A stretch of DNA of 64,000 nucleotides from Microbacterium hominis (GTDB lineage: Bacteria > Actinomycetota > Actinomycetes > Actinomycetales > Microbacteriaceae). The translations under genes were made by a program, and so were the position numbers. The notes beneath the pieces are model-generated. The model made no database searches. It saw only the letters and a list, made by a program, of their open reading frames with translations, and was not told the origin of the DNA. Location: contig NZ_CP054038.1 in NCBI RefSeq assembly GCF_013282805.1, positions 3,162,001-3,226,000 of the forward strand, read 5' to 3'. Positions 1 to 9,452 of the stretch are shown in pieces (position 1 is the stretch's first letter; every line of letters begins with the position of its first letter).

Positions 1-1030
1 TGAGTCGGCATTCCGGGACGAACAGTGTGTTCGCGTCGGCGTAGGCGCGCATCGCGGGTTCGGTGTCGGTGACGTAGATGTCTGGCGAAAGCATCGCCAG
101 TGACGGGGCAGCTGCCTGCCACACATCGAGCACCCGCGCCCCGGGCCCTCCGCTGGGGTACTGACCAGCGCGGTCCTGCCCGGGCTGCGGGCCGAGCCAG
201 GCATTGGCGTACGTGGGTGTCGCCAGGTGACGCCGCACGCGCTGGGAGAGCTCCTCCGCATGCGATGCGAACGCCCACGCCATGAACAGCTCCTCGGCCT
301 GCCAGTCGTCGCCGAAGACCTCTGGCCAGGTCCCTCCCTCACGGGCGCCGGCCTCCCGCCAGAGACGGCCCGCATGGGACGTCGCGGGATCGGCGGCAAC
401 GGCGAGGCCCAGGAGCGCCTCAGGGACGGGAGACCGCCACGCGGCTTCAGCGCCCGAACTGCGGTCGCGACTGTCCGCCAGGATGCCGACCTCATTCTCG
501 ATCTGAAGCAAAGGCACCACATCCTGCGCGCCGAGCTCGGCGATGTGCTGCGCGAGCGCCTCGACCGCGGCCGCGTCGGCCGACGTGAGCGCGGGCGAGA
601 ACACCGACAGGACCGGCTTCGGAGTCGCGCCCTCATAGGTGAACGCAGTGGCGGCGCGCTCTTCGACCGCCGCACGAGGGAAGCGGGCGCGATCCGCTCG
701 CACCCAGGTCGGCGCGTACGTCGAGGCCGCGTTCTTGTAGGCGCCGAACCACAGCAGCACAAGCCGCAGCCCGGCGCTGCGCGCACTCTCGACCAGGTGG
801 TCGACGAGCGCGAAGTCGAAGATCCCTTCCTCGGGCTCGAGCTGGCCCCAGCTCACCGGGGCGATGACGGTGTTCGTATGAAGGCGTCGCACGTGCGCGA
901 GCGCGTGCGTGATCGATGCGAGCGTCGATGCCGACGAGTTGTGCAGCTGTCCGCCGAGCAGCAAGCGTGACTCGTCACCCTGGACCAGCTCGCCGACGGC
1001 GTGGGTGCGGAAAGTCCAGGCCCCGGTCAT
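1..1030 (-). CDS. GH35-like beta-galactosidase (DUF5597 type), 3' end outside window
   Basis: Reading frame enters from the left edge; about 343 residues are visible from the ATG at 1030. The translation shows a TIM-barrel glycosidase N-terminus: LLLGGQLHNSS near residue 25, VSWGQLEPEEG near 60, LWFGAYKNAAS near 90, and QIENEVG near 175, where the Glu matches the acid/base Glu of GH35/GH42 enzymes. The ATG overlaps the TGA of the upstream gene by 4 bp, so it is translationally coupled as the last visible gene of a three-gene minus-strand operon. It probably removes a terminal galactose or similar sugar from the substrate handled by its neighbours. The nucleophile region lies near or beyond the edge. 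The family call is firm to clan level; the substrate is inferred. Confidence 0.8.
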   Translation of the reverse strand, partial: MTGAWTFRTHAVGELVQGDESRLLLGGQLHNSSASTLASITHALAHVRRLHTNTVIAPVSWGQLEPEEGIFDFALVDHLVESARSAGLRLVLLWFGAYKNAASTYAPTWVRADRARFPRAAVEERAATAFTYEGATPKPVLSVFSPALTSADAAAVEALAQHIAELGAQDVVPLLQIENEVGILADSRDRSSGAEAAWRSPVPEALLGLAVAADPATSHAGRLWREAGAREGGTWPEVFGDDWQAEELFMAWAFASHAEELSQRVRRHLATPTYANAWLGPQPGQDRAGQYPSGGPGARVLDVWQAAAPSLAMLSPDIYVTDTEPAMRAYADANTLFVPECRL

Positions 1031-2502
1031 GCCGGCTGCCACGCCCGCATCGCGGAGCGGATGAGGTCGTGCTGCCTGCGGACCAGCAGCAGCGGGTCGA
1101 CCTCGCCGAGCTCGGCGAAGGCGTGGCCCTCCCACTCGCTCGACCAGTAGCCGCGATAGCCGTTCTCGACGAATACGCGCACGTGCTCCGGATAGTCGAT
1201 CGCGGGCTCCTCGCCCGACTCGTCGATGTCGTAGAACTTCGCGTGGACGTGCTTGATCTGCGGCATGATGTCGGCCCACTCGCGGGGATCGACGTGGCCG
1301 TGCATGTTGAACGCGAGGTGCGCGAAGGCGCCCAGGCGACCGGGATCGAAGTCTCGACCCTTGAGGTAGCCGATGAACTCCTCCTGCCGCTCCCGCATGC
1401 TCGCATCGGTCGCCCAGATGCGCTGGAGTGTGTCGATCGCCTCGTCGTCGAGCCCGGCGCGCGCGACCGCACGCAGCAGTGTCGGCGACATCGCGTGCAT
1501 CGTCGACGAGAAGTCGGCGACGAAGCCCAGGAGCGGCGAGTCGAGCTCGGCGTAGGTCTCCCGGACCTTCATGATCGGGTCGGCGTTCGGCCCCATCGGC
1601 GCGTGGATCTCGTAGGCGAGCGTGAGGTTGTCGCGTTCCGCGATCGGCAGCAGGCGGCGCAGCAGCTCGGGCTTGGCCGACTGGATGCGCACTAGCGGGA
1701 AGCCGAGCTTCTTCGCGCCCTCGAACATGAGCTTCGAGAACTCGAACTCCTCGTCGGGCGTCATGTCGCGGTCGCGGCGGCGGCCCATGTCGAGGTTGGC
1801 GCCGAACGAGCTCGCCGTGAACCCGTGCCGGTCGAACGCGGCGCGCCACTGCGCGACGAAATCGTCGCCGACGACCGGATAGGTCGGCACCACCTGCGAC
1901 GCGACGATCTCGATGCCCGGCCCGATGCCGAGCTCTGCCACACGGTCGAGCAGACCGTCGAAATCGAACCATCCCGCGCGGAACTCCGCGGAGGCCGAAT
2001 ACAGCGTGAGACCCAGGTGGAACGGGTCCGCGTCGGTCGCCGGCGGCGGAGGAGAGACGTCCGACACCTGCACCGGAGGCGCGGCATCCCGATCCGTCGC
2101 CGTGAGCGCGAGGGTCTGACGCACCACGTTCGGCACGTACATCCCGGGCCCGCCGTCCTCACCCGGTGCGATCTGCATGTAGGGAAGACGGAGCATTCCG
2201 AAGATCGTGACCTCATGCGCGTCACCCAGCGTGATCGGCGTCTCGCGCGCCGCGACCAGCAGCGGATGCCGCTGCAGGAACCACAGTGTGTCGCTCTGCT
2301 CGGGCAGCTCGTCGAGGGCATACGACGTGCCGTCGAGCTCGAAGCGCAGGTCATCGGCGGGCACCTGCTCGCCGTCGATCCAGACCTGCAGGGTCGACAC
2401 CGACGAGAGCCAGAGGCTGCGATACCAGGGCAGCGTCAGCGAGAGCGCGAAGCCGTCGGGATGCACCCGGAGGCTGTCTTCGGCGATGAGTCCGTTGGGC
2501 AT
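1027..2502 (-). CDS. Fused C-glycoside deglycosidase-like protein (beta-like domain + TIM-barrel alpha-like domain), paralogue A
   Basis: 491 residues from the ATG at 2502, chosen because an AAGGA sits 9-13 nt upstream and the upstream gene ends 19 nt before. Residues 10-135 look like the DUF6379/CGDB fold (LPWYRSLWLSSV, WIDGEQVP, WFLQRHPLLVAA, then a GxxHEVTIFGMLRLPYM strand). A proline-rich linker (about 150-160) leads to a xylose-isomerase-like TIM barrel (165-490). The expected divalent-metal and catalytic residues are visible: YEIH at 297-300, Asp330, HVH at 418-420, and SSEWEG near 455-460. In characterised C-glycoside deglycosidases the two domains are separate alpha and beta subunits that cleave 3-keto C-glycosides. 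The same TIM fold also occurs in sugar epimerases, so the reaction is inferred. It is followed at a 4-bp overlap by a GH35-like enzyme. Confidence 0.75.
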   Translation of the reverse strand: MPNGLIAEDSLRVHPDGFALSLTLPWYRSLWLSSVSTLQVWIDGEQVPADDLRFELDGTSYALDELPEQSDTLWFLQRHPLLVAARETPITLGDAHEVTIFGMLRLPYMQIAPGEDGGPGMYVPNVVRQTLALTATDRDAAPPVQVSDVSPPPPATDADPFHLGLTLYSASAEFRAGWFDFDGLLDRVAELGIGPGIEIVASQVVPTYPVVGDDFVAQWRAAFDRHGFTASSFGANLDMGRRRDRDMTPDEEFEFSKLMFEGAKKLGFPLVRIQSAKPELLRRLLPIAERDNLTLAYEIHAPMGPNADPIMKVRETYAELDSPLLGFVADFSSTMHAMSPTLLRAVARAGLDDEAIDTLQRIWATDASMRERQEEFIGYLKGRDFDPGRLGAFAHLAFNMHGHVDPREWADIMPQIKHVHAKFYDIDESGEEPAIDYPEHVRVFVENGYRGYWSSEWEGHAFAELGEVDPLLLVRRQHDLIRSAMRAWQPA

Positions 2503-2521
2503 GGTGCTGTGTCCTTGCGGG

Positions 2522-3823
2522 TCAGAGCTGCGACGCGATGCGGCGGATGAGGGAGTGCTGGCGTCGCACCTGCTCGATCGCACGCCACGGGTCGCGTTCG
2601 CCCTCGTACTCGCTGGAGAGGTACCCCGTGTAGCCGGCGTCCGTGAGCGCGCGCAGCACCGGCTCCCAGGGGATCTGCTGGTCTTCGAGGTTCTCGTCGA
2701 TGTCGTGGAACTTCGCCTGGATGAACACGACGTACTCCGCGATCCCCGCGATGTCGGCGGGATCGACGGCGATGCCGTCGAGGAACGCCGGGCGACGGCC
2801 CGGGAGCTCGCCCGGCTTCATCGGAATCGGGCGGTCCTGGAAGATCCCGGTGTCGAGCAGGAGCCCGAAGTGCTTCGTGCCGGTGCGCTGGATGAGGTCG
2901 ATGTAGTCGTCGACCACCTCGTGCTTGATCGGCGTCGGCGAGTGGATCTCGGGGCAGATGATGACGTCGAGCTCCGCGGCCAGATCGAGCGACCGCTCGA
3001 CGGCCTCGGTCCACGCCGGGTGCGGCACGAGGTCGCTCGAGACGACGCCGATCTTGGGGCGGACGAACCGGAATCCGAGCCGCCGTGCCAGCTTCAGGTC
3101 GCGCTGCAGCATCCCGGCGGCTTCGAGGGCGGTGAGGTCCCTCGCGTTCGGTCCGCTCGAGTGCAGGCGGGTGTCGATCCACGAGCCGTAGTTGGTGGGT
3201 TCGAGCGAGTACTTCTCGAGGAGGCCGAACCAGGAGTCGATCCATGCGGTCGACGGGTTCGGGTAGTTCGCGACGTGGCCCTCGCCGAGGATTTCGACGC
3301 CGGTGGCTCCGACATCCGCCACGTGCGCGAGCGCCGTCTCGAGATCCATCACGGTGCCGAAGTCGTGCATGAAGCTGTAGAGGCTCACGCCGTACTGGAA
3401 CGGGCCGCCGTCGCCCTCCGGCGAGAGGGTGATGCGACGCGTGATCCGGTAGGTCGACGGCTGGTGCTCGAGCGGGATGTACGACATCCGCAGGCGCAGC
3501 TCGACGGTAACTTCGTGGATGCCGGCCGGCAGGCCGCCCTCGAACGGAACGGTGATGATCGCGGCGTCTTCGAGGGGCCAGCGCACCCCCTCGGAGTCCC
3601 ACAGCTGCTGGAGCGTGTAGGTGCGGCCCTGCAGCGTCCACAGCGGAACATCGTGGGCGACGTCGACGAGGCCGCCGACCTTGACGGAGACGCCATCGAT
3701 GAGCGAGGCCGCCATGCCGCGATAGGACGGCATGCGCAGCCGCAGCTGGAAGCCGGTGACGCGGTCGCCCTCGCGGACGTTGCGGAAGCCGATGGACTGG
3801 AGGATCTCTCGTTCGAGAAGCAT
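2522..3823 (-). CDS. Fused C-glycoside deglycosidase-like protein, paralogue B
   Basis: 433 residues from the ATG at 3823, which has AGAGGG 5-6 nt upstream; an upstream in-frame start at 4003 would run through the divergent promoter and is rejected. Architecture matches paralogue A: CGDB-like beta-sandwich (about 20-130: LRMPSYRGMAAS, LIDGVSVKVGG, AGIHEVTVELRLRMSYIP), then a TIM barrel (145-430). Putative metal or catalytic positions are PEIH 291-294, Asp324, IQAKF 368-372 and SSEYEG near 405. The position that is His in paralogue A (HVHAKF) is Gln369 here. First gene of the minus-strand operon, divergent from the flavoprotein gene. It may act on a different sugar or aglycone than A, or the two may form a complex; neither can be decided from sequence. 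Confidence 0.75.
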   Translation of the reverse strand: MLLEREILQSIGFRNVREGDRVTGFQLRLRMPSYRGMAASLIDGVSVKVGGLVDVAHDVPLWTLQGRTYTLQQLWDSEGVRWPLEDAAIITVPFEGGLPAGIHEVTVELRLRMSYIPLEHQPSTYRITRRITLSPEGDGGPFQYGVSLYSFMHDFGTVMDLETALAHVADVGATGVEILGEGHVANYPNPSTAWIDSWFGLLEKYSLEPTNYGSWIDTRLHSSGPNARDLTALEAAGMLQRDLKLARRLGFRFVRPKIGVVSSDLVPHPAWTEAVERSLDLAAELDVIICPEIHSPTPIKHEVVDDYIDLIQRTGTKHFGLLLDTGIFQDRPIPMKPGELPGRRPAFLDGIAVDPADIAGIAEYVVFIQAKFHDIDENLEDQQIPWEPVLRALTDAGYTGYLSSEYEGERDPWRAIEQVRRQHSLIRRIASQL

Positions 3824-4086
3824 CGATGCCCTCTTCTGTGTGTTGCGGACCAGCACGACGGCGACGTCGGCACGAGGCCTCCACAGGCCTGGATCGAGGC
3901 TATCCCGTTTTCGCCTGATTCGCACATAAGTAGGCGCAATCAACACATAACGAGCGGTGATGCCAGCGCCTTGTGCGCTCCCCGGCGACCGATTAGATTT
4001 CAAATCCGAACAATAGTTTTGATTCTAAATCAGCCTCCCTGGTCCATCGACGGACGAGCCGGATGCTGCTCAGAGAGGATTACGCC
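3824..4086. promoter_or_regulatory. Divergent promoter region with paired GATTNNNAATC sites
   Basis: Only non-coding gap between the minus-strand deglycosidase-like operon and the plus-strand flavoprotein operon. It turns AT-rich near the flavoprotein gene. Two copies of the imperfect palindrome GATTNNNAATC lie at 3996-4006 (GATTTCAAATC) and 4021-4031 (GATTCTAAATC), centres 25 bp apart, 56 nt before the flavoprotein ATG. Such a pair is a plausible operator for control by a dimeric regulator; the nearby TetR gene is a candidate, not a demonstrated one. Confidence 0.45.
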
Positions 4087-5250
4087 ATGGCAGAGCCGAT
4101 GAAGATCCTGATCGTCGGTGCCGGTATCGGCGGTCTGACGACCGCCTCGGCCCTGGCCCGCATCGGTGCTCAGGTCGAGGTCATCGACATCAAGCCCGAC
4201 AACAGCGTCGCCGGCGTCGGCTTCGGCCTCCGCATCAACGGCTTGCGGGCGCTGCGGGACATCGGCCTGCTCGAGAAGTGCCTCGAGATGGGCCACCCCG
4301 CACCGGGGATCGACAACTACGATTCCGACGGCAACTTCCTGAGCAACATGAGCTACGGCTCGCAGGACGAAGGCCTCCCGGGATGCGTGACGATGGCGCG
4401 AGTGGCCTTCCTCGAGATGGCCGCGCAGCACGCCCTCGACAACGGCTGCACGATCCGCATGAATACGACAGTCACCGACCTGAACCAGGACGACAGCACG
4501 GTCTCGGTGACCTTCAGCCGCGGCGACCGCGCCGATTTCGACCTGGTCCTCGGCTTCGACGGCATCAACTCGCAGATCCGGCGCGATCACTTCGGCGAGA
4601 AGTACGATCCCCGCCCCGTGGGCGGCGTGGCGTGGCGCGCGGCCCTTCCCAACCGGCGCAAGATCATGCAGCCGATCATCTGCCAGGGCTATGGGGGCAA
4701 GATCATGCTCACGCCCCTGTCAGAGGACACGATGTACATGGTGCTCACCGTGGCAGAGGAAGGCCGCCCTCGATACGACTCGACCAAGATGGCCGAGATC
4801 ATGCACGATCGAGCGGTTGCGCTCACCCGTGGATCCGAGTTCCTGGCCGACGCGCTCGAAGACGTCCGTCACTCCGAGAATGTCGCGTACACGCCCTACT
4901 CGACGGTCTGGGTGCCGTACCCGTGGTTCCGGGGCCGCGTGATGATCATGGGCGACGCCGCACACGCCATGACGCCGTACCTCGGGTCGGGCGCCGCGAT
5001 GAGCATCGAGGACGGAGTGGTCCTCGCCCAGGAGCTCGCGAAGGACCAGTCGCTGCTCGATGCGCAGCTGAACTTCATGAAGCGCCGTCTGCCGCGCGTG
5101 CGCGCGGTCCACGATCGCTCGATCGAGTCGATGCTCGAGGAGTTCGACTCCGTGACGCCGGAGACGTTCCGCGATCGCGTCGAGTATCTCCGCCACGACG
5201 AGCCGATCGCGAACGAGTACGCGAACCGCCTGCTGCGGATGCCCTACTGA
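4087..5250 (+). CDS. FAD-dependent oxidoreductase of PHBH fold, CarA-like C-glycoside 3-oxidase candidate
   Basis: 387 residues from the ATG at 4087 (GAGAGGA 6-7 nt upstream); an in-frame ATG at 4063 lacks a site. The N-terminal Rossmann motif VGAGIGGLTTASAL (10-23) binds FAD, and MGDAAHAMTPYLGSGAAM (about 295-312) is the second FAD motif of group A flavoprotein monooxygenases. In isolation it would be annotated as a salicylate- or 3-hydroxybenzoate-hydroxylase-like monooxygenase. Its position divergent from two deglycosidase-like proteins fits the Microbacterium/Arthrobacter C-glycoside pathway, in which an FAD-dependent oxidase oxidises the sugar C3 hydroxyl before C-C cleavage. That role is inferred from context; the fold is clear. 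It is followed 38 bp later by the GH39-like gene in the same operon. Confidence 0.75.
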   Translation: MAEPMKILIVGAGIGGLTTASALARIGAQVEVIDIKPDNSVAGVGFGLRINGLRALRDIGLLEKCLEMGHPAPGIDNYDSDGNFLSNMSYGSQDEGLPGCVTMARVAFLEMAAQHALDNGCTIRMNTTVTDLNQDDSTVSVTFSRGDRADFDLVLGFDGINSQIRRDHFGEKYDPRPVGGVAWRAALPNRRKIMQPIICQGYGGKIMLTPLSEDTMYMVLTVAEEGRPRYDSTKMAEIMHDRAVALTRGSEFLADALEDVRHSENVAYTPYSTVWVPYPWFRGRVMIMGDAAHAMTPYLGSGAAMSIEDGVVLAQELAKDQSLLDAQLNFMKRRLPRVRAVHDRSIESMLEEFDSVTPETFRDRVEYLRHDEPIANEYANRLLRMPY

Positions 5251-5288
5251 CCGGCCGAACCCGCCCCTTCGTCACTTAGGAGATCCTC

Positions 5289-6767
5289 GTGTCGCAAACC
5301 CACGAATCGTCCCCCGCCGCCGCTGCCGCGCCGGCTTCCTCCACGCGGGCGCTCATCGTCGACGCCGGTGACGAGAGCGCGTTCCGGCCACTGAACGGCG
5401 TGGGGGGCATCCCCGGTCCCGTCGACAGCTACCCGCAGTTCCCCGACATGACGCCGCTGTGGCGCGAAGCGGGGGTGACGGTGGTGCGCTCGTTCGACTG
5501 GGTCTCCCGTCTCGACACGCGCAACAACCCGACGAGCCTCTTCCCCGATTGGGGCGCCGACGTCGACGACCCCGCGAGCTACAACTTCGGCCCCACCGAC
5601 CAGTGGGTCGAGGCGGTGCATTCCATCGGCGCCGAGGTCATGTTCACGGTGGCCAGTTCGATCCCCTCGAACAAGCTGCCGGCGGAGGATGTCGAGGTGT
5701 ACGGGCGCGTCGTCGAGCACATCGTGCGCCATTACTCGCAGGGGTGGGCGGGAGGGCCGTCCCAGCCCATCCGGATCTACGAGTTCGGCGACCAGCCCGA
5801 CTTCGGACCGCTGCACTTCGCGGGACGCCCCGAAGAGTTCTACGAGATGTACCGGGCGTTCTGCGAGGCAGTACACCGCGTCGACCCCTCGCTCACGGTC
5901 GGGGGCCCGGCCACCGCCTTCCCTCTGGAGGTGGACGCGCCGTACCGGGAGGGCTTCCTCGAGTTCGTGCGCGAGAACGACCTGCCCCTGGACTTCTTCT
6001 CCTTCCTCTGGTTCACAGACTCCAGCCGCGATCCACTCGACTACCGATACGTGTCCGAGAAGCTGCGCGCGCTGGTCGACCGCCACGGATTCACCGACAC
6101 CGACCTGACGCTGTGCTACTGGAACTACCTCGGAGTTCCCAGCAACACCGCCCCGGCGGAGGAGAAGGGCGCGTTCCAGGCGGCAACCGCGATCTATATG
6201 CAGGACACCGTCATCGACCACGCCTTCTTCTTCCGCGCCGACAGCGGGCGCGATCCGCACTACGGCTTCGTCGACCCCGGAGGCGTCGGCGCGACGGACG
6301 GCACTCCCGACGAACGGTCCCAAGCGCTCGCCCTGGCCGGACGGGCGCTCACGGGTCGCCGACTGGCGGTCACCGGCGGGGACGAGTCGGGTCTCGCCTG
6401 TGCTGCCGGTCGCGACGGCGACGTGGTGCGCGTGCTCGTGGCGAACTACGTCGCCCCCGATACGGCGCTGACCGAACGGGCAGAGGATCGCTTCACCTTC
6501 CGCATCCCGATCGGCGAGCAGCGCATCGAACTCGGCTTCGACCTTCCGCCGCAGCGCCGTGATCTCGCGTCGGCGGGAGTGACGTCAGCCGGCATCCACA
6601 TCCGCAACCTCCCCTGGGCGGGGCATTCTGTGAGCGTTACGCGCACCTCGTCGTCAGGAGTGGTGGACGGCCCCCATGAGGCACAGGTCTCCGACTCGGG
6701 CGAGATCCAGCTCGACCTCGAGCTCGCACCTCAATCGGTGTTCCTTCTCGAGCTTCGGGCCCGCTAG
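5289..6767 (+). CDS. GH39-like (beta-xylosidase-type) protein lacking both catalytic glutamates
   Basis: 492 residues from a GTG at 5289 with TAGGAGA 4-5 nt upstream. The body aligns by eye with GH39: WREAGVTVVRSFDW near 60, then EFGDQPDFGPLHF at 165-177 followed by a YRAFCEAVHRVDPSLTVGGPA helix-strand, and LTLCYWNYLG near 273-282. In GH39 enzymes these two segments read NEPD (acid/base Glu) and TEWN (nucleophile Glu). Here they read DQPD and CYWN, so Gln169 and Tyr277 replace the two catalytic Glu residues. A beta-sandwich tail follows. It may bind a glycoside without hydrolysing it, or use another mechanism. No signal peptide is seen, so it is cytoplasmic. It shares an operon with the flavoprotein. 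Confidence 0.7.
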   Translation: MSQTHESSPAAAAAPASSTRALIVDAGDESAFRPLNGVGGIPGPVDSYPQFPDMTPLWREAGVTVVRSFDWVSRLDTRNNPTSLFPDWGADVDDPASYNFGPTDQWVEAVHSIGAEVMFTVASSIPSNKLPAEDVEVYGRVVEHIVRHYSQGWAGGPSQPIRIYEFGDQPDFGPLHFAGRPEEFYEMYRAFCEAVHRVDPSLTVGGPATAFPLEVDAPYREGFLEFVRENDLPLDFFSFLWFTDSSRDPLDYRYVSEKLRALVDRHGFTDTDLTLCYWNYLGVPSNTAPAEEKGAFQAATAIYMQDTVIDHAFFFRADSGRDPHYGFVDPGGVGATDGTPDERSQALALAGRALTGRRLAVTGGDESGLACAAGRDGDVVRVLVANYVAPDTALTERAEDRFTFRIPIGEQRIELGFDLPPQRRDLASAGVTSAGIHIRNLPWAGHSVSVTRTSSSGVVDGPHEAQVSDSGEIQLDLELAPQSVFLLELRAR

Positions 6768-6892
6768 CCGGAGGACCGGCGAGCCTCGGTTGCGCAGGCG
6801 ACAGCCCCGCTGTGAAAGCGACCCGCATGAGAACAATTGCTCCGGGCGATGGGTAGGCTCCGACGATGGACGGCGGGCGAAGCGGAGGGACG

Positions 6893-7543
6893 ATGGCGAA
6901 GAGATCGACCGTGAACGGCGTGACGGAGCCCAAGCAGCAGCGCAGTCGCGACTCGTTCGCGAAAGTGCGCTCCGCCGTGCTGCAGCTGCTTCAGGAACGC
7001 GGCACCGGGCAGTTCTCCCTCGCCGAGGTGAGCGCCGTTGCCGGACTCTCCGTCGGGTCCATCTATGGCCGGGTTTCGAGCAAGGCGGAGTTGCTGAGGG
7101 CTGTGCAGAGCGAAGAGTTCGATCGGCTCGACGCCCACACCGAGAGTCACGTCAGCAGCGCTGCCGCCGGCGCGGAGACCTTCGAGCAGGCGACGAGCGC
7201 GATCGTGACCGTCTACGCGGAGATCCTGCGGAAGAACCGCGAGCTGCTGTCGCCGTTCTTCCTGCTCGGCATCGAGGATCGCGCGATCCTCGACCGAGGG
7301 CGGCAGTCCGGCGACGCAGGGCAGGCGGTCTTCGTCCGCGCTCTTCTCGCCGCAGCCGAGGAGCACGACGTGGAGCTGACGGAAGCGCGCGCGGACTGGG
7401 CGTTTGAGATCTTCTACAGCCTGTGCGTGCGCTATCTCGGCCTCGGCGTCGCGACGACGGCCAGCCCCGACAGCGATTACGACTGGAATGAACTCCTCAG
7501 GCGCCTCGCCGACACGGTCCACCTGATCCTTGCATCTGCCTGA
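6893..7543 (+). CDS. TetR-family transcriptional regulator
   Basis: 216 residues from the ATG at 6893 (GGAGGG 3-4 nt upstream); an earlier in-frame ATG at 6866 has no site. Residues 20-65 form the TetR helix-turn-helix, with FSLAEVSAVAGLSVGSIYGRVSSKAELL covering recognition helix and the tail of the domain, then a helical ligand-binding domain. It lies 125 bp after the glycoside operon on the same strand and is the most likely local regulator of that cluster. GAACAAT occurs both upstream of this gene (about 6832) and between the paired sites at 3996-4031, a weak hint of a shared operator. Confidence 0.85.
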   Translation: MAKRSTVNGVTEPKQQRSRDSFAKVRSAVLQLLQERGTGQFSLAEVSAVAGLSVGSIYGRVSSKAELLRAVQSEEFDRLDAHTESHVSSAAAGAETFEQATSAIVTVYAEILRKNRELLSPFFLLGIEDRAILDRGRQSGDAGQAVFVRALLAAAEEHDVELTEARADWAFEIFYSLCVRYLGLGVATTASPDSDYDWNELLRRLADTVHLILASA

Positions 7544-8183: not shown

Positions 8184-9452
8184 TCAGAACACGCCGTCGA
8201 TCGCGCCGATGGCGGTCACCTGCACGCGCGGCCCGTCAGAGCCGAATATCGTCCGCGTCTTGTCCGTCCACGACGGCCACTCCCCCGTCGCTGACACGCG
8301 CACCGTGTACTCGCCGGGCGGAAGCTCGGGGCCGATGAACCGCACGCCTTCGTTCGGCTCGAGGCTGTACCAATCGATCAGCTGCGATACGTGCGTGGTG
8401 CCACCGGACATGATCTCGACCCGTGCATAGCCGCTGTGCCGGTCGGTGCGTCCGCTGACGATGACACGCCCGCCGCTCACCGCCGCCGCTACCGCCTCGC
8501 CGCCCTGCGCGAGCGGGCCGTCGATCCGGGCGTCCGCACTCTCGCTCACCGATGCGCGCGTGAAGGTCGCGGAGTCCCACGCCGGCCAGTACTCCGGCAG
8601 AAGCATGTCTCCGCCCCGCGCGACCGGCTGCCAGACGTACGTGGCAGCCGAGGCCTGGTGCGGGAAAGACCACCGATCACCCATGAAGAGATGCTCGATG
8701 CGCCCGTCGCGCTCGAGACGGAGCACGAACGTCGCCTGCGAGTTGTGCGTCAGCGTTCCGATCGGCGCAACCGTCCCGGACGGCACCCACGGACCGGAGA
8801 GTTCGTCCGCGGTCATCACGACGTTGTCGTTGCGTTCCCAGCTGGTCTTGCGGGAGAAGATCAGGTGGTAGCGGCCGTCGCGCGCGAACATCGCCGGAGA
8901 CTCCCCGCCGGGGGCGATTCCGCTCGCGACCTTCTCGACCGCCGCACGATAGTCGCCGCGCAGCCGATAGATGTCGCCTTCGTGGACGAGGAGATACCCT
9001 TCACCGTCGTCGTCCTGGAACGTCCCGATGTCCCAGCGACGGATCGGCTGACCATCGAAGCGGAGCGGCCCCTCGAAGGAGTACTCCCCTGCGATCTCGT
9101 CGCTCGTCGCGATGCAGGTGTGGGGATCTGTGTAGCCGAGATCGTCGGCGTGCATGAACATCACGAACTGCCCGGTCGCCGGCGACCGCATGACCTTGAC
9201 CCGCTCGCCGATCCGCCCGGGGCCGAGCAGCCCCGTCTGCTGCCGCGGCAGCACGATCCTCTCGAAGGTCCAGGTGGCGAGATCGGTCGACGAGTAGCAG
9301 GAGAAGCCGATGAAGGTGTTCTCGTCGTCGGTCTTGTACTCGCCGAAGAGATACCAGCGACCCTCGTGCTCGACGATGCAGCCGCCGTGCGCATTGACGG
9401 GCAGCCCCCGATCGTCGAACCAGGGGACACCGTTGACCACGAGGGGAGGCAT
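8184..9452 (-). CDS. Glycoside hydrolase family 43 protein (galactanase/galactosidase-like subfamily)
   Basis: 422 residues. The five-bladed propeller signature of GH43_24/34-type enzymes is visible: VNAHGGCIVEHEGRWYLFGEY at 19-39 (read in two parts), CYSSTDLATW near 54, HADDLGYTDPHTCIATS near 100, RWDIGTFQDDDGEGYLLV near 140 and GGESPAMFARDGRYHLIFS near 190, whose Glu matches the general acid. Enzymes of this branch (exo-beta-1,3-galactanases and relatives) often lack the usual Asp base at the N-terminus, as seems true here. A C-terminal beta domain (about 310-420) follows. No secretion signal is seen. It faces away from the TetR gene and may add galactoside processing to the cluster. Confidence 0.75.
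   Translation of the reverse strand: MPPLVVNGVPWFDDRGLPVNAHGGCIVEHEGRWYLFGEYKTDDENTFIGFSCYSSTDLATWTFERIVLPRQQTGLLGPGRIGERVKVMRSPATGQFVMFMHADDLGYTDPHTCIATSDEIAGEYSFEGPLRFDGQPIRRWDIGTFQDDDGEGYLLVHEGDIYRLRGDYRAAVEKVASGIAPGGESPAMFARDGRYHLIFSRKTSWERNDNVVMTADELSGPWVPSGTVAPIGTLTHNSQATFVLRLERDGRIEHLFMGDRWSFPHQASAATYVWQPVARGGDMLLPEYWPAWDSATFTRASVSESADARIDGPLAQGGEAVAAAVSGGRVIVSGRTDRHSGYARVEIMSGGTTHVSQLIDWYSLEPNEGVRFIGPELPPGEYTVRVSATGEWPSWTDKTRTIFGSDGPRVQVTAIGAIDGVF

Follow-up and report, generated by a model that had tools for sequence, protein, structure and literature searches.

FUS1 and FUS2, two single-chain CGD-like proteins

The 64,000-nucleotide stretch of the 3.9 Mb Microbacterium hominis genome analysed here (the window; G000:C1:3162001-3226000, with window position 1 at 3,162,001) carries near its start two adjacent genes, on one strand with a 19-base gap between them, whose products are referred to as FUS1 and FUS2 (Table 1). 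The published C-glycoside deglycosidases (CGDs) considered here consist of two subunits, a property of the characterised members rather than of the reaction itself. FUS1 and FUS2, by contrast, are each one open frame, with the beta-subunit domain CGDB (PF19906; E = 4.4e-32 in FUS1 and 9.9e-16 in FUS2) followed by an AP_endonuc_2 domain at residues 166-415 of FUS1 (E = 3e-16) and 186-469 of FUS2 (E = 3.6e-10). All four matches exceed the Pfam cut-offs, in agreement with the original prediction that two neighbouring proteins join a CGDB-like beta domain, similar to CGD beta subunits, to an alpha-like TIM barrel. The CGD-type barrel is recognised in both proteins by Pfam and by matches to solved CGDs, and in FUS2 also by structure matching. 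The named close relatives of both proteins are mostly from Microbacterium, and public databases already name FUS1/FUS2-like proteins after the CGD beta subunit.

Table 1. Features of the locus and island; positions refer to the window unless marked as genome coordinates (G000:C1)
Feature	Position	Strand	Remarks
FUS3, third fused CGD-like paralogue, 461 aa	L005:8272-9657 = G000:C1:3138272-3139657		
GMC oxidase	G000:C1:3148622-3150145		13-14 kb from FUS1/FUS2, adjoining beta2/alpha2
GH35/GH42-like glycosidase with DUF5597	1..1030	-	cut by window start; DUF5597 5.8e-14, Glyco_hydro_42 7.2e-8
FUS2, putative single-chain CGD of AgCGD2 type, 491 aa	1027..2502	-	
FUS2 TIM-barrel (alpha) domain, ~residues 160-487	1042..2025	-	metal E298 D330 H420 K422 E456; catalytic H300 E458
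FUS2 N-terminal CGDB (beta-subunit) domain, residues 16-108	2179..2457	-	Pfam; Foldseek to 7dnm_B E 8.1e-10
FUS1, putative single-chain CGD orthologous to PDB 8qrz/8un2, 433 aa	2522..3823	-	
FUS1 TIM-barrel (alpha) domain, ~residues 141-430	2534..3403	-	Gln replaces metal ligand His269 (AgCGD2 numbering)
FUS1 N-terminal CGDB (beta-subunit) domain, residues 3-115	3479..3817	-	Pfam
Operator-like palindrome between divergent FUS1 and PHBH genes	4003..4024	.	1 mismatch to consensus; presumed site of cassette TetR
PHBH-fold (class A) flavoprotein monooxygenase, 387 aa, accessory cassette	4087..5250	+	FAD_binding_3
GH39-like protein, both expected catalytic Glu positions replaced (GDQPD, CYWN)	5289..6767	+	Pfam, motifs
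TetR-family regulator next to PHBH-GH39 pair	6866..7543	+	Pfam
GH43	8184..9452		

FUS1 closely resembles a solved protein, deposited from cryo-EM as "Microbacterium testaceum C-glucosyl deglycosidase" (PDB 8qrz/8un2), in its single-chain beta-alpha architecture, near-equal length and Gln at the metal site. The protein of M. testaceum NS220 (L189) is 78% identical to FUS1 without gaps (336/433), and contains an exact 35-residue stretch of 8qrz. The single-chain CGD architecture is thus already known, and the original statement that alpha and beta are separate in characterised systems holds for the enzymes described in the available text of PMC8563793, but not for these entries. No papers on 8QRZ, 8UN2, 8QVC or 8UMC, nor literature on DUF6379, fused or single-chain CGDs or the M. 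testaceum CGD, were found in searches that mostly did not cover subscription journals, where publication is possible. The closest two-subunit solved relative of FUS1 is EuCGD (DfgA-DfgB) from Eubacterium cellulosolvens (PDB 7bvs/7dre; alpha E = 1.8e-60, beta E = 4.6e-16), which has separate subunits in an alpha4-beta4 assembly, as far as the available parts of PMC8563793 describe it, and carries His where FUS1 carries Gln at the metal site.

FUS2 shares no more than 27-30% identity with FUS1-type chains and, in contrast to 8qrz, belongs to a separate fusion clade, with no solved single-chain FUS2-type entry among the matches to solved structures. Both of its parts best match AgCGD2 (AgCarB2-C2) from Arthrobacter globiformis (PDB 7dnm/7dnn), whose metal and catalytic residues are all kept. 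AgCGD2 is an alpha-beta heterodimer of two chains in the accessible text of PMC8563793, however, and its alpha orthologue in M. hominis is a separate protein, alpha1 (E = 3.3e-191), rather than FUS2. A further two-subunit case is the soil puerarin pathway of PurA and PurBC, with PurBC a heterodimer according to the available portion of PMC12724307.

The metal ligands of AgCGD2 are Glu147, Asp179, His269, Lys271 and Glu305, with His149 and Glu307 catalytic (AgCGD2 numbering; Mori 2021, PMC8563793, available in part). FUS2 retains all five ligands and both catalytic residues, as do all rows of alpha1 type (33/33), alpha2 type (42/42) and FUS2 type (40/40) in a residue table typed by best BLAST match, in which some genes are counted repeatedly. 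FUS1 retains four of the five ligands, with the EIH, Asp, Lys and Glu positions and the catalytic His and Glu present and Gln in place of His269, as in 8qrz. The EIH, Asp and Glu positions expected at the outset are therefore found in both proteins, whilst the Gln of FUS1 had gone unremarked. The same Gln occurs in 71/74 FUS1-type rows, fused or split, and so appears to be a fixed trait; the three His-bearing rows are a single outgroup gene (G833) fetched three times.

Several points weigh against reading both proteins as single-chain CGDs. His269, which is Gln in FUS1, is essential in PuCGD and MiCGD, with its mutation to Ala reported, in the parts of PMC8563793 available, to reduce the activity of both enzymes dramatically. 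The structure model of FUS2 is only moderately confident (pLDDT 75, pTM 0.68), and whilst its barrel and its beta domain each match the corresponding CGD parts, the two domains together fail to superpose on 8qrz (14.7 Å over 390 residues), leaving a composite single-chain active site putative for FUS2. The fixed Gln could also mean that the metal site of FUS1 shifts its preference towards O-glycosides or another 3-keto substrate, leaving FUS2 as the true CGD, and O-glycoside beta-eliminases with a similar TIM-barrel metal site exist, such as AtOGE (PMC10628242, seen in excerpt). However, 8qrz bears the same Gln and was deposited under the name C-glucosyl deglycosidase, and we consider this alternative unlikely. 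That FUS1 and FUS2 are both sugar isomerases or epimerases acting downstream, on 3-keto sugars, and not C-C lyases, seems quite improbable.

Probable separate fusions and the distribution of fused CGD genes

In the main alpha tree (78 rows from hand-picked genomes, with FUS3-type rows, described below, left out), the fused FUS1 chains group together (96/94) inside a set of split pairs, and the fused FUS2 chains form a clade of their own (100/97), sister to the separate alpha1, with two fusion-state changes needed, both of them forced. A second alpha tree, with seven changes of which five are forced, included L030, a locus truncated at its end, and G003, in which the frame is broken, and because of these defects the 78-row tree was relied upon. 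The beta tree rests on 123 columns of a short domain and a quick method, and both trees flag long branches. It groups the FUS1 betas with those of split FUS1-type pairs and the FUS2 betas with beta1, as fusion between cognate partners predicts. Other features of the beta tree make the picture less clean, as it needs six changes (three forced), places the FUS2-type beta of G635 on the beta1 side at 81, and gives FUS1 nearest split neighbours different from those in the alpha tree. FUS1 and FUS2 appear to have arisen by separate beta-alpha fusions, a possibly new observation that the beta tree supports only in its broad outline.

Before the window start lies FUS3, the third of the fused CGD-like paralogues. 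The beta part of FUS3 scores only 0.0046 against CGDB, and FUS3-type rows read E-Q-D-H-K-E-G at the seven positions in 31/31 cases, with the catalytic His replaced by Gln and the catalytic Glu by Gly but the metal ligands retained. FUS3 is fused in M. hominis and in 5/28 other rows, with the beta part of the remainder lying just upstream in another frame (19), in the same frame but another open reading frame (ORF; 2), or undetected (2); parsimony gives four fusion-state changes, one of them forced. The linkers are also unlike one another: that of FUS1 is only a few residues long, that of FUS2 is rich in proline and that of FUS3 in Ala and Pro. In the split actinobacterial pairs of G410, G468 and G381, beta precedes alpha and the two genes overlap by 4 bases, whilst those of Pseudomonadota run from alpha to beta in 7/7.

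A tentative proposal, which we regard as possible but doubtful, is that among five co-resident CGD-type alpha/beta units of one island at least two, and here three, were fused separately from cognate partners, perhaps as a safeguard against mispairing between close paralogues, with the chemistry of FUS1 and FUS3 having diverged. Against the mispairing idea, G833 and G594 have several CGD pairs and none is fused. Were the proposal correct, FUS3, with its catalytic His and Glu lost and its metal ligands intact, would represent a new metal-dependent reaction in C-glycoside breakdown.

CGDB was found in 80/366 genomes of the same genus, in 20/299 drawn from the family and in 5/396 drawn from the phylum, three of these last above the cut-off, with the M. 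hominis genome itself counted in. The FUS1 loci are the best 80 of 97 from named genomes, in the only search to reach phyla other than Actinomycetota; 70 encode a single open chain, seven are split (all Pseudomonadota), two are cut by contig ends and one (L203) has a broken frame. FUS2 directly follows FUS1 in 61/70 single-chain loci, and both fused genes occur in A. globiformis NBRC 12137 (L194) and M. trichothecenolyticum DSM 8608 (L150). At L203 (10001-11298; Naasia aerilata), FUS1 and an ALPHA2-like gene are frame-broken in a complete genome, either as pseudogenes or through sequence errors. Loci labelled Fulvimarina, Planococcus and Stenotrophomonas (L140, L154 and L164) carry genes with 78-88% identity to FUS1, and are probably contaminant contigs. 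A CGD cluster has reportedly also been found in Deinococcus aerius, by Furlanetto in 2024.

The surrounding island and its oxidase

At an E-value of 0.001 the M. hominis genome contains four CGDB matches, two fused and two separate, the latter 14-17 kb before the window start. The genes before the window run in the order FUS3, ThuA, isomerase-like genes, a Gfo/Idh/MocA dehydrogenase, beta1, a SnoaL-like gene, alpha1, alpha2, beta2 and a GMC oxidase, followed towards the window by an isomerase-like gene, two ABC permeases, a binding protein, GH3 and LysR. Two ordinary alpha/beta pairs (alpha1/beta1 and alpha2/beta2) thus share the island with FUS1 and FUS2, so that, whilst two different CGD types do stand side by side as in the single-chain pathway with two specificities originally envisaged, the pathway of the island is not a single-chain one. 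The SnoaL-like gene (L005:15210-15992; G000:C1:3145210-3145992) also precedes a FUS1-PHBH-GH39 arrangement in L181 and L227. The GH35/GH42-like gene, whose start overlaps the FUS2 stop (ATGA), is complete beyond the window as L006:15393-17030 on the minus strand (545 aa).

The GMC protein matches PDB 7dve (E = 3.6e-252) and 7qf8 (E = 1.7e-250), which we take to be the CarA-type and PsG3Ox GMC C-glycoside 3-oxidases. Its gene is present with FUS1 in 20/20 chosen Microbacterium neighbourhoods (the DNA around each locus), and across all 35 fetched neighbourhoods GMC is found at no less than 61% identity in 31 and FUS2 at no less than 60% in 28. The soil 3-oxidases CarA, AgCarA, MtCarA and PsG3Ox all belong to the GMC superfamily, and a comparable gene set, with two homologues each of CarB and CarC, lies near the PsG3Ox gene (both from the available text of PMC10646112). 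The cluster is an extension of a known soil C-glycoside locus, the orthologue of these oxidases, and the likely oxidase of the island, being the GMC gene rather than the PHBH-fold flavoprotein encoded divergently from FUS1. A point against a pathway built on this oxidase is that neither FUS1 nor FUS2 is part of the GMC operon, and that the two could work with a different oxidase. A second GMC oxidoreductase match (G000:C1:3124340-3124672) lies ~24 kb further out, and several relatives have GMC matches of ~41-44% identity past the FUS3/GFO2 end of the island.

The PHBH-GH39-TetR cassette

The FAD_binding_3, GH35/GH42-like, GH39-like and TetR genes reported alongside FUS1 and FUS2 are all present by Pfam, with TetR and GH43 falling outside the 1-6767 interval first described. 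The flavoprotein matches FAD_binding_3 at 2.5e-29, with no GMC domain up to an E-value of 1, and every orthologue stretch covering them has the GxGxxG, DG and GD motifs, which are those of NAD(P)H-using class A flavoprotein monooxygenases. Of its 19 best solved relatives, 17 bear the name of an oxygenase or hydroxylase, and there is no GMC or sugar oxidase among the 19.

The original prediction took this flavoprotein for a sugar 3-oxidase of known type, forming a complete single-chain pathway with FUS1 and FUS2. The gene is divergent from FUS1 in M. hominis, L071, L175, L189, L210 and L226, and in L181, L203 and L227 the three genes FUS1, PHBH and GH39 share a strand and are ordered as in an operon, making a functional link with FUS1 likely in some lineages. 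Orthologues occur in 27/366 genus genomes and are enriched among those bearing CGDB (24/80 versus 3/286 without; Fisher p = 1.1e-14, uncorrected for relatedness). However, the known soil 3-oxidases are GMC proteins with an orthologue in the island itself, the motifs and solved relatives of the flavoprotein point to oxygenases, PHBH is found in the available DNA of only 15/70 intact FUS1 loci (16/80 in all, and 4/35 neighbourhoods), and the cassette occurs in three genomes with no CGDB match (G149, G187 and G279). We regard this assignment as highly improbable; the protein belongs to an optional cassette and is probably not the 3-oxidase of the pathway, and would most likely hydroxylate an aromatic aglycone.

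GH39 adjoins PHBH in 10/10 loci compared, the three CGDB-free genomes included, with a TetR relative adjoining the pair in some, though not all, of these loci. In the CGD-free genomes a fixed partner operon for the cassette was rejected, as the divergent genes there are a TauE-type transporter and an aldehyde dehydrogenase (G149 and G187). The two catalytic Glu residues of GH39 enzymes, acid/base and nucleophile, stand in NEP and TEW-like motifs. The GH39-like protein matches the fold family in Pfam (6.3e-10), and reads GDQPD and [CS]YWN in all covering stretches across 30 loci, with Gln and Tyr at the expected catalytic Glu positions. GH43, by contrast, was said to complete the set but had no tblastn matches covering half its length in the 35 neighbourhoods or 80 FUS1 loci, and is thus rejected as a member of the conserved set.

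An operator of sequence GATTNNNAATC was rejected, being found upstream of PHBH in 1/30 cases and of FUS1 in 1/103, and a longer palindrome resembling AATCNGAANNNNNNTTCNGATT took its place. The latter has 22 matches at up to one mismatch in 2.52 Mb of loci that include repeats of some genomes, 20 of them upstream of PHBH and six of these also facing FUS1, with none in 40 shuffled loci, a count that is partly circular as the consensus was drawn from the same promoters. The copy between FUS1 and PHBH is a candidate and presumed site of the cassette TetR.

Proposed pathway and significance

The homology, residues and gene neighbourhood of FUS1 and FUS2 make it very probable that both are single-chain C-glycoside deglycosidases acting in the following pathway. 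C-glycosides would be imported by the ABC transporter of the island, trimmed by its glycosidases and an SGNH-type esterase, and oxidised at C3 of the sugar by the GMC oxidase 13-14 kb away. FUS1, FUS2, alpha1/beta1 and alpha2/beta2 would next act on different 3-keto-C-glycosides, breaking their C-C bond through metal-assisted elimination, with the N-terminal CGDB domain of each fused chain acting as the beta subunit in aglycone binding, and the C-terminal TIM barrel as the alpha subunit providing the metal site and catalytic His and Glu. C8-glycosides would be the likeliest substrates of FUS2, given that it is paralogous, in fused form, to the AgCGD2-type pair alpha1/beta1.

Few enzymes attack the C-C bond broken by CGDs, and the need for two genes makes CGDs harder to use. 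The naturally occurring single chains of two distant CGD types may offer both enzymes ready for use and a clear example of subunits fused more than once, with both fused genes occurring in species (A. globiformis and M. trichothecenolyticum) whose two-subunit CGDs have been characterised. A 2025 review, in the parts available, describes the transition between heterodimeric and fused enzymes as noteworthy and calls for phylogenetic work (PMC12141560). What deserves following up is the repeated fusion, together with the altered active sites of FUS1 and of the CGD-like paralogue FUS3.

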